Shown piece after piece: positions 17,086 through 21,391 of a DNA stretch of 29,780 nt. The stretch covers positions 1 to 29,780 of IMG/VR virus record IMGVR_UViG_3300047557_001054; one strand, written 5' to 3'. How positions within the stretch are numbered: position 1 is the stretch's first letter; each line of letters begins with the position of its first letter. The notes below the pieces were generated by a model, which did no database searches, was not told the DNA's origin, and saw only the letters and a program-made list of their open reading frames with translations. Source of the stretch: a virus. The position numbers were made by a program, and so were the translations under genes.

Positions 17086-17299
17086 TTTCTATGAGGTGAT
17101 GAGTGCTAAAGGTGACATTGAAACAGGCACGGCGAGCGCGACTGAAGCTATTGACTGGTTCAGACGTGGGGTAGACGCATCCATATTCGTTAGCGTATGG
17201 AACGAGGAGGATATTGAGGAGCCGGTGCTAGTCACCGACAAGATCGAGATTACTGACGTGGTATTGGCTACCATACTAAGCGAAAGGGAGAGAGGATGA
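17072..17299 (+). CDS. Small hypothetical protein (75 aa)
   Basis: ATG at 17072 with AAGGAGG upstream, overlapping the previous gene by 14 bases. It begins MKLVNFYEVMSAKGDIETGT, then ASATEAIDWFRRGVDASIFVSVW and a hydrophobic end (ITDVVLATILSERERG). Residue pattern is like a small alpha/beta fold (beta, helix WFRRG, beta SIFVSVW). Function unknown. Confidence 0.7.
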   Translation: MKLVNFYEVMSAKGDIETGTASATEAIDWFRRGVDASIFVSVWNEEDIEEPVLVTDKIEITDVVLATILSERERG

Positions 17300-17376
17300 G
17301 CTTACTTCTAGGTGCGATTGCGCTCACTCTGATAGCATATGCCCTTACCTATCTTGAAGGAGAGAGTGAGTGGTAG
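17296..17376 (+). CDS. 26-aa transmembrane peptide
   Basis: ATG at 17296 overlaps the preceding TGA as ATGA and has AAGGGAG upstream; stop TAG 17374-17376. The sequence MSLLLGAIALTLIAYALTYL plus a short acidic tail (EGESEW) is essentially one membrane helix. The next gene starts at a GTG inside its end. It sits next to the signal-peptide transglycosylase, so a link to envelope passage or lysis is conceivable. Confidence 0.65.
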   Translation: MSLLLGAIALTLIAYALTYLEGESEW

Positions 17377-17654
17377 ATATATCAAGAAGGAAACAGACCG
17401 CTCTTAAACAGGCAGTCAAACAGCGCAATTATAGACGGGTACGAGACCGCGCCTTAAGGCGACTGGCTAACCTCTACCCTGACCAATACCGAGAGTTATT
17501 CGAGGAGGAAAGGGAAAGAGATGAAGCGCAGGACAAAGTTTGGCTTGATATTACTGGCAGGACTAACGCTAGTGTGGGCTTATCAACCGCACACTCAGCA
17601 GGTCAATCTACCCAAAGACCTGACGATAGTATCCAAGAAGGCGAGCTGGAGTGA
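17370..17654 (+). CDS. Basic conserved phage protein (94 aa, GTG start)
   Basis: GTG at 17370 with GAAGGAG seven bases upstream. A strongly basic helical N-terminus (RRKQTALKQAVKQRNYRRVR, then RALRRLANLYPDQYRELFEE) is followed by ERDEAQDKVWLDITGRT, a pattern I know from actinobacterial phage proteins of unknown role. The C-terminal 44 codons (17521-17654) are also read in another frame as the signal peptide of the transglycosylase. Its TGA is GTGA-coupled to the 102-aa gene. May bind nucleic acid. Confidence 0.65.
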   Translation: MVDISRRKQTALKQAVKQRNYRRVRDRALRRLANLYPDQYRELFEEERERDEAQDKVWLDITGRTNASVGLSTAHSAGQSTQRPDDSIQEGELE

Positions 17655-17937
17655 GAAAGGTGAGAACAAGGACACCGCGAAGCAATACGCTTGGGTTGCA
17701 TTTGGTTGGCGGGGCAAAGAGTGGCTCTGCCTCCACGATTTATGGACCCGTGAGAGCAGGTTTGACCACCACGCCAGCAACCAACAAGGAAGCTCAGCTT
17801 TCGGAATTGCTCAGCTCCTTGGAGAAAAGAGTAGAGATCCTCGAGTCCAAATACTTAGAGGTCTGCGATACATTTCAGAGCGTCACGGCTCGCCTTGCCG
17901 CGCTCTCGCTTTCCATAATAAACGAAACCATTATTGA
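17521..17937 (+). CDS. Lytic transglycosylase-like protein with signal peptide, nested out of frame
   Basis: ATG at 17521 follows GGAAAGGGAAAGAG. Residues 1-20 (MKRRTKFGLILLAGLTLVWA) form a signal peptide or anchor. Then come FGWRGKEWLCLHDLWTRES, with the likely catalytic E78, a Gly/Ala/Phe motif SSAFGIAQLL (91-100), GLRYISERHGSPCRA (114-128) and a terminal HNKRNHY. This order (CLxxLWxxES ... AxGIxQ ... GLxYIxxRxGxPC) is that of SLT-type transglycosylases of actinobacteria and their phages, which cut peptidoglycan between MurNAc and GlcNAc. C70 and C126 may form a disulfide. Every codon overlaps either the 94-aa or the 102-aa gene in a different frame. Confidence 0.75.
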   Translation: MKRRTKFGLILLAGLTLVWAYQPHTQQVNLPKDLTIVSKKASWSEKGENKDTAKQYAWVAFGWRGKEWLCLHDLWTRESRFDHHASNQQGSSAFGIAQLLGEKSRDPRVQILRGLRYISERHGSPCRALAFHNKRNHY

Positions 17938-17959
17938 CAAAGAGGAAGATAGCAAGTAA
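17651..17959 (+). CDS. Coiled-coil protein (102 aa, GTG start)
   Basis: GTG at 17651 overlaps the 94-aa gene's TGA (GTGA). The N-terminal half is Gly/Ser/Thr/Arg-rich and probably disordered. The C-terminal half is a convincing heptad-like coiled coil (LSELLSSLEKRVEILESKYL, then FQSVTARLAALSLSI), ending in acidic residues. Codons 1-96 share DNA with the transglycosylase in another frame, but the last seven codons and the good heptad pattern suggest this frame is also real. A shorter version from an internal GTG at about 17750 is possible. It closes the plus-strand block. Confidence 0.55.
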   Translation: MRKVRTRTPRSNTLGLHLVGGAKSGSASTIYGPVRAGLTTTPATNKEAQLSELLSSLEKRVEILESKYLEVCDTFQSVTARLAALSLSIINETIIDKEEDSK

Positions 17960-18006: not shown

Positions 18007-18045
18007 ATAACCCCGCAGTGCCATACCTGCGGGGTTATTTTATTT
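18007..18045 (+). terminator. Rho-independent terminator of the plus-strand block
   Basis: ATAACCCCGCAG (18007-18018) pairs fully with CTGCGGGGTTAT (18027-18038) across an 8-base loop. It is followed by TTTATTT on the plus strand. The stop of the minus-strand FmdB-like gene (18042-18040) lies in the T-tract. The stem may therefore also end minus-strand transcripts, though there no T-tract follows. Confidence 0.85.
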
Positions 18046-19875: not shown

Positions 19876-20073
19876 ATGAGCAGCAATATTTCTTACAGTT
19901 TGAATCGAACCCCACGCACTAGAGTCATCAGGAAGTGCAGCCTCAATCTCTTTGGCTATCTGCTCACGCAATACAGATTCAAGACGATTTATGTAATAAG
20001 TAATCATCTTATCCTCCATATTGTCTGCCCAGTTCTGAAGGATTTCTCTGGTGATTTCCTGCTTGTCAGTCAT
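19852..20073 (-). CDS. Helical protein with REQIAKEIEA/IARGN module (73 aa)
   Basis: ATG at 20073 overlaps the Nmad1-like gene by eight bases. The protein is helical (EITREILQNWADNMEDKMIT, then RLESVLREQIAKEIEA) and ends HIARGNND. Its C-terminal modules recur in the 120-aa and 58-aa genes downstream, with matching DNA. Such short helical modules are frequent at the ends of actinobacterial phage proteins; the role is unknown. Confidence 0.65.
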   Translation of the reverse strand: MTDKQEITREILQNWADNMEDKMITYYINRLESVLREQIAKEIEAALPDDSSAWGSIQTVRNIAAHIARGNND

Positions 20074-20479
20074 TGGGTAACTCAGGCCACTTTTTGTCTA
20101 GCACCATCATCGCAATAGCAGAGTAGTTCAGTAGATCTAGAAAGGAGTCTCTGAGGCTCTCGTTTGAGGGAGAGACGTTACTATCAAGGAGGTTATTGAT
20201 GCGAGCCACCTTGTCCCACATCCGCACTCTAAGTCCGTTGAGTGGGCCACCTGGAGAGTGAGCGATGTTCTTCGGGCCGTAATCGTGATGCTTGCGGATG
20301 AGCAGATTTCCTGCGGTGTCAAGGATTGACCAGACATCTCTGACAAACTCATCATCTATCTTCTTGCGGGCATCGGCTGGCAGGTTATCGTCCCAGCCTT
20401 GTAGTCTATCGAAACTATTGTCATCCCCATATCCATCAATAATCTGGCTGCCTCTTGCAACTCTCTCTTGCTCACTCAC
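20066..20479 (-). CDS. Nmad1/DUF1599-like protein (137 aa, GTG start)
   Basis: GTG at 20479 is GTGA-coupled to the primase TOPRIM gene, with AGGAGGAGC upstream. The conserved region KHHDYGPKNIAHSPGGPLNG (residues about 61-80), followed by RMWDKVARINNLL and SLRDSFLDLLNYSAIAMMVL, matches the helical family once called DUF1599 and now nucleotide-modification-associated domain 1. It is MazG-like, with acidic and His residues for a metal-bound nucleotide. Suggests work on dNTPs or modified nucleotides beside replication genes. Catalysis not shown. Confidence 0.75.
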   Translation of the reverse strand: MSEQERVARGSQIIDGYGDDNSFDRLQGWDDNLPADARKKIDDEFVRDVWSILDTAGNLLIRKHHDYGPKNIAHSPGGPLNGLRVRMWDKVARINNLLDSNVSPSNESLRDSFLDLLNYSAIAMMVLDKKWPELPND

Positions 20480-21120
20480 TTTGCTCCTCCTAGTAGGTTG
20501 TTCAACGCATCAGGTCCTTCTGCCAAATAGAACTCGTTGATATCCATACCTGGTGGTAATTGTACTATTTGCCCGTTTGTTATCTCTCCTGCGACACGCC
20601 GTGCGAACTCAGCTCCAGGATTGGAACCATCTTCTTTCACATCATTATCACCGATGATATAAACCGTATCAAAACCAGTAAATAATCTAGCAAAGTGTGG
20701 CTTCCAAGCAGTTACTCCTGGCACACCTACTGCTGGTATGTTACACATACCTGATAAAACTATTGCATCTAGCTCACCTTCACATATGACTATGTTGGGT
20801 GCATCTAAGGTTGTATCAACTACATTAAATAGATGAGACTTTTGTCCCAGCGGAGAGCCGTACTTTGGTTTGCCATCATCTAATCTTCTAAACTTAAAGC
20901 CAACACAGTAACCTAATACTGTTATGTAAGGTATTGCTAGCCACCCCTCGTGCATCTCGTGGCCCGGATGTGGATCTGTGATAGTGCCCAACATAAACTG
21001 CCTGGCTACCTCCTCAGATATCCCACGTCCTTCTAGGTAAGCTACGGCCTCTGCGCTTAGATTCGCTGCGTACCGTTGCGCCGACTCCAGCAAGGATTTC
21101 ATCTGCTCGCTCGACTGCAT
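20476..21120 (-). CDS. DNA primase, TOPRIM part (214 aa)
   Basis: The catalytic TOPRIM signature is visible: VICEGELDAI (E114) and IIGDND (D158, D160), which bind the metal in DnaG-like primases. An N-terminal helical region with NLSAEAVAYLEGRGIS and the GYCVGFKFRR strand precede it, as in phage primases. The zinc domain is in a separate upstream gene, overlapping this one by 107 bases in another frame. The ATG at 21120 has only a weak AGG upstream, and an in-frame TAG lies just before it, so a fused product would need a shift inside the overlap. Confidence 0.85.
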   Translation of the reverse strand: MQSSEQMKSLLESAQRYAANLSAEAVAYLEGRGISEEVARQFMLGTITDPHPGHEMHEGWLAIPYITVLGYCVGFKFRRLDDGKPKYGSPLGQKSHLFNVVDTTLDAPNIVICEGELDAIVLSGMCNIPAVGVPGVTAWKPHFARLFTGFDTVYIIGDNDVKEDGSNPGAEFARRVAGEITNGQIVQLPPGMDINEFYLAEGPDALNNLLGGAK

Positions 21121-21391
21121 CTTTGAAACCTATCCCTTCCTTCTCCATAATAACATCGACTGCCGACCCACCTTTACCGCAGGTGTGGCAGAAATATAAA
21201 TTACCGTATGTATCTATCACTGCACTCCTGCGTGTATCGTTATGGATACAACAGCGAACCGATACGTTACGTCCCTCTCTTACTTCTCCACCGTAGAACC
21301 TTACTATGTCTGCTATGGAGATTGCACTTGCATCAACGGAACCTTTTCGTTTCGTTTTACGAACCACCCTGGACCAGTCTTGTGCTGACAT
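21014..21391 (-). CDS. DNA primase, CHC2 zinc-binding part (125 aa)
   Basis: A CHC2-type zinc motif is clear: C47-x2-H50 (CCIH), then FCHTCGKGG with C68 and C71, as at the N-terminus of DnaG, which recognises template DNA. It is followed by the helix VDVIMEKEGIGFKDAVERAD typical after this motif. ATG at 21391 has AAGGAG seven bases upstream. The basic C-terminal tail (SKRRGRSLPRRTWDI) is read from DNA that also encodes the start of the TOPRIM gene. Confidence 0.85.
   Translation of the reverse strand: MSAQDWSRVVRKTKRKGSVDASAISIADIVRFYGGEVREGRNVSVRCCIHNDTRRSAVIDTYGNLYFCHTCGKGGSAVDVIMEKEGIGFKDAVERADEILAGVGATVRSESKRRGRSLPRRTWDI

Follow-up and report, generated by a model that had tools for sequence, protein, structure and literature searches.

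An SLT-like transglycosylase gene of uncultured phages carries a conserved and probably translated coiled-coil gene in its +1 frame

The SLT-like transglycosylase gene (SLT) of a tailed phage is overlapped in its +1 frame by an open reading frame, f1, that is very probably a selected and translated gene, a claim that excludes the role of its product. The window, that is, the whole stretch of 29,780 bases analyzed here, is IMG/VR record IMGVR_UViG_3300047557_001054, in which the tailed-phage genes are those of the terminase large subunit, portal, primase, DnaB-like helicase, RusA, exonuclease, and sigma factor. Judged by comparison of 132 distinct sequences with SLT identities as low as approximately 40%, both frames are open and constrained.

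The 3′ end of a plus-strand block in the window consists, in order, of a 26-aa single-transmembrane (TM) peptide, f2, the SLT/f1 pair, and a terminator-like hairpin (Table 1). The ORF of the TM peptide overlaps both flanking genes by a few bases, and comparable hydrophobic peptides occupy the same location in many relatives. The 3 open reading frames that the first-pass annotation had placed at 17370–17654, 17521–17937, and 17651–17959 are all present in the frames assigned to them, as are the GTGA overlap that joins f2 and f1 at 17651 and the enzyme motifs CLHDLWTRES, SAFGIAQ, and GSPCRA. Together, f2, SLT, and f1 use 3 different plus-strand frames sharing 17370–17959. The description of SLT as wholly nested across 2 genes is accurate insofar as its 417 nt lie entirely inside the union of f2 and f1, and is overstated in that only the SLT/f1 overlap is strongly selected. 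The f2/SLT overlap is ordinary and variable: the N-terminal, nonoverlapping part of f2 is conserved across 64 loci, with codon position 3 accounting for 67–88% of the changes (at 80–95% nucleotide identity), and the stop position of f2 differs among relatives, so that the length of its overlap with SLT differs too. The SLT/f1 overlap (17660–17937, 278 nt) is, from the same comparisons, the sole conserved and selected long overlap here. The observation of a nested gene holds, and is stronger than first claimed.

Table 1. Features of the 3′ end of the plus-strand block of the window, and f1 genes of relatives that extend past the SLT stop.
Feature	Position	Strand	Remarks
26-aa single-TM peptide, candidate small holin	17296..17376	+	Directly upstream of f2; holin role putative
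f2, 94 aa, GTG start	17370..17654	+	N-terminal part conserved; C-terminal tail variable, overlaps SLT
SLT-like transglycosylase (predicted), 138 aa, ATG start	17521..17937	+	PHROG matches, tblastn, motifs, N-terminal hydrophobic/signal helix
f1, probable overprinted coiled-coil gene, 99 aa	17660..17959	+	Read in the +1 frame of SLT; GTG at 17651 is an alternative start (102 aa)
Terminator-like hairpin	18007..18038	+	3′ of f1; 12-pair stem, then T-rich tail
Tail-extended f1	L031:1251-1637, L040:5059-5442, L043:5062-5442, also L046		Zinc-ribbon-like CxxC-x11-CxxC tail, under purifying selection

The SLT protein is predicted to be an exported SLT-like transglycosylase. It matches the PHROG profiles phrog_12661 (transglycosylase, 3.9e-15) and phrog_15428 (5.7e-21), and tblastn aligned it with actinophage endolysins and transglycosylases at 36–51%. 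The catalytic-type glutamate E78 (of the LWTRES motif), the GIAQ motif, C70, and C126 are invariant, and the AF2 model has an N-terminal hydrophobic helix (residues 3–20) followed by a helical domain. Because Pfam gave no match and the top hit of the PDB fold search, MltC, was not significant (E 2.2), the family assignment is based on the PHROG profiles, the tblastn matches, and the motifs. A search of genome contigs yielded one distant SLT and nothing more. The best SLT matches, together with a WhiB-like gene in the related sequence ct2KA10, point to actinobacterial rather than classical Gram-negative hosts.

Relatives, all of them sequences from metagenome contigs, were collected by scanning IMG/VR with the SLT protein (80 tblastn-confirmed loci), with the f1 protein (80 tblastn-confirmed loci kept of at least 509), and with the SLT of ct2KA10 (53 loci). 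The SLT-found loci have an open f1 frame except for L078, L079, and L081, whose SLTs are of a different context, and no locus fetched by the f1 protein carried f1 without SLT. Stops in either frame of homologous phages, which the first-pass annotation regarded as evidence against overprinting, are rare inside the clade: SLT is open in 80/80 of the f1-found loci, and 130 of the 132 distinct SLT sequences have an intact f1 frame, the 2 damaged copies being those of L120 (stop at codon 6) and L016 (shortened C-terminus). By contrast, the f1 frame is broken in all 53 loci of the ct2KA10 set. Among distinct sequences, the f1 frame contains 0.015 stops per sequence in the 132 f1-bearing SLTs versus 3.8 in the 51 f1-less SLTs, 49 of which carry stops and 2 of which do not. 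Within the SLT core there are 0.10 stops per 100 codons in the +1 frame and 8.9 in the +2 frame; 9 control sets of neighboring genes in these phages have 4.3–9.7 in the +1 frame.

The codons of SLT are constrained where f1 overlaps them. At SLT identities of 0.7, 0.6, and 0.5, fourfold-site identity is 0.75, 0.63, and 0.63 in the f1 clade versus 0.48, 0.43, and 0.38 in the f1-less relatives; among neighboring genes, only a short primase gene (21014–21391), itself partly overlapping, comes near SLT. Three codons are frozen in the f1 clade, namely A97 (GCT in 132/132), G101 (GGA in 129/129), and L100 (CTT in 128/130), whereas the same codons are mixed in the f1-less clade. L74 is encoded by TTA, CTA, or CTT only, which places Tyr or Phe in f1. 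Purifying selection in a single frame, the other outcome that the first-pass annotation had set against its proposal, is not the case inside the clade, where SLT and f1 are both constrained. An OLGenie-like per-frame dN/dS analysis of the overlap also seemed supportive; control genes were likewise biased toward values <1 in the +1 frame, and the analysis was not counted. The stop-density controls, the codon freezing, and the f1-less clade were used in its place.

In 3 relatives (L031, L040, and L043), f1 runs on beyond the end of SLT for about 30 codons, into the CxxC-x11-CxxC tail. In this region the other 2 frames carry stops and the f1 frame alone is open, with pairwise pN/pS values of 0.09, 0.10, and 0.22 among these lineages; in the loci examined, the tail was not found as a separate ORF. 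Because the tail lies past the SLT stop under low pN/pS, the f1 frame is almost certainly translated. A start codon (ATG, GTG, or TTG) is present at one of 2 homologous positions, 9 nt apart, in 70/70 sequences listed. The window has GTG at both (17651 and 17660), and its closest relatives mostly have the 17660 position alone. The sequence upstream is purine-rich and different for the 2 positions. These sequence features indicate that f1 has its own translation start.

The f1 protein is predicted to be disordered up to residue 39 and then to form one confident helix (residues 40–98) with hydrophobic columns at residues 47, 51, 54, 58, 61, 68, 72, and 79 in a 3-4 heptad pattern, and thus the coiled coil noticed in the first-pass annotation is borne out as a prediction. 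Searches of Pfam, PHROGs, PDB sequences, and BFVD folds gave nothing usable for f1, and neither tblastn of f1 nor blastn of the 15–18.6 kb region of the window found a match in GenBank phages. In the mechanism that we propose, translation of f1 would begin at a start codon of its own within the SLT mRNA, re-initiation by ribosomes that have just finished f2 at 17654 may help f1 initiation, and the f2, SLT, and f1 proteins would be made together from one mRNA. Since f1 is without a signal or TM segment, its product would most likely be a coiled-coil oligomer that remains cytoplasmic.

For the role of this product, close to an even chance falls to a real protein unrelated to lysis, that is, an assembly, host-takeover, or counter-defence adaptor for which SLT is merely the carrier. 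A disordered arm followed by a helix suits many adaptors, and some lineages have added the zinc-ribbon-like tail; the obligate linkage of f1 to SLT and its position next to a single-TM peptide and an enzyme argue against such a function. The order of genes at the operon end (mini-TM peptide, f2, SLT/f1, and terminator) alone leads us to suggest, tentatively, that f1 may serve the lysis cassette as a coiled-coil accessory or a timing factor. A more far-reaching proposal, that f1 represents a new coiled-coil family that originated de novo within the catalytic-core sequence of a lytic enzyme, has spread to hundreds of contigs of uncultured phages, and has a product that binds or times SLT or its export, we consider unlikely. 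If f1 does bind or time SLT, it would be a built-in, co-produced lysis regulator.

Synonymous suppression taken alone would fit a protein and an RNA or DNA element within SLT (a structure or a regulatory site, with no second protein) equally well. Such an element is nevertheless very improbable in view of the following: (i) the RNA structure of the overlap is not unusual (z −0.82); (ii) the constraint runs across the whole ORF in step with the reading frame; (iii) Tyr/Phe and Arg/Lys exchanges in the f1 protein escape the constraint on SLT codons, and synonymous changes in SLT favor conservative f1 replacements (+0.14 BLOSUM, CI 0.03–0.26), whereas 6 of 7 control genes showed the opposite direction and the short f2 set was undecided; and (iv) the f1 frame goes on as coding sequence past SLT.

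The selected-gene reading must also be weighed against f1 as a by-product, with the +1 frame held open through the SLT amino-acid sequence and codon preference. A recoding simulation of 12 sequences, given the SLT protein and the codon usage of the window, put the probability of an open f1 frame at 0.002–0.08 per sequence. For the window by itself, the probability is 0.08 under its codon usage and 0.30 under shuffling of its own codons, values that leave room for a by-product. Set against the open frame of 130 of the 132 clade sequences, the stops in 49 of 51 f1-less relatives of presumably the same fold, the 4–10 stops per 100 codons of the neighbors, the frozen SLT codons, and the coding tail outside SLT, this account is scarcely credible.

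The layout of the selected gene resembles that of the two-component spanins of phage lambda, in which the Rz1 gene lies within Rz and is read in its +1 frame (PMC6139136). Both pairs consist of a short +1-frame gene inside an envelope-related (lysis-type) phage gene, and a coiled coil is involved in both. However, the outer gene is an enzyme and not an i-spanin in the case of SLT/f1, and it is the nested f1 that carries the coiled coil. With a lipobox in 0/48 f1 sequences, no TM or signal segment (19-residue hydropathy median 0.66 and maximum 1.33), and hosts that appear actinobacterial from the SLT matches and the ct2KA10 WhiB-like gene, f1 is extremely unlikely to be a membrane-active lysis protein, of spanin type or otherwise, nested in the manner of Rz1.

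The f1-less SLTs are widespread, and f1 was found on SLT only. On the SLT tree, whose root is uncertain and whose deep forks are weak, the f1 label requires 2 changes versus a shuffled mean of 19.5. This pattern fits one gain plus one loss, and a single gain would also be compatible because the deep forks are weak. Since SLT is common without f1 and f1 never occurs without SLT in these sets, we infer that f1 was overprinted on the older SLT gene. The overprinting that the first-pass annotation had proposed is supported as to the openness and constraint of both frames, and SLT is probably the older gene of the two.

The SLT-type enzymes of the Streptomyces phages Endor1, phiCAM, and Daubenski have a homologous catalytic domain with the LWTRES, GIAQ, and PxxA motifs; they differ in having no conserved f1: the corresponding frame of the Camvirus set is GC-rich and has an unrelated sequence, and that of Daubenski is interrupted by stops. 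The phage sequence ct2KA10 (L082) and its 53 IMG/VR relatives encode a related SLT with an N-terminal hydrophobic segment. As in the window, FmdB-like, sigma-factor-like, and primase-like genes lie downstream of SLT in ct2KA10, but a WhiB-like gene, not f2, precedes it.

Overprinted genes are known in viruses and bacteria in general (PMC8227390), and olg1 and olg2 of Pseudomonas phage Fc02 are examples (PMC9936078). Like these, f1 would be a new protein encoded in a second frame of a gene that already existed; unlike them, it is conserved in 132 distinct sequences and has an f1-less clade as a natural control. Overprinting itself is therefore known, and what is new is a gene of the length of f1 maintained across the catalytic-core region of a lytic enzyme gene of phages, together with an f1-less control clade. 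In the open-licence literature, we found no description of any gene lying within a phage transglycosylase gene. The f1-bearing and f1-less SLT clades constitute a natural experiment on the birth of a protein inside active-site-coding sequence and its cost to the older enzyme. Although the f1 family is matchless in the libraries searched, at least 509 IMG/VR stretches encode a relative, and f1 is a concrete target for proteomics. To our knowledge, tailed phages offer few long same-strand overlaps with support as good as this. Annotation pipelines tend to suppress long same-strand overlaps.

Two minus-strand loci of the window also showed unusual substitution patterns. In a phrog_1485-like gene (20066–20479), third codon positions account for an unusually small share of the changes (0.52); the gene was considered as the site of a second nested gene and rejected, its +1 frame having 2–12 stops in relatives and thus no conserved gene. 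The primase is encoded as 2 genes (20476–21391) that overlap by about 107 nt, and the upstream one has raised fourfold-site identity.
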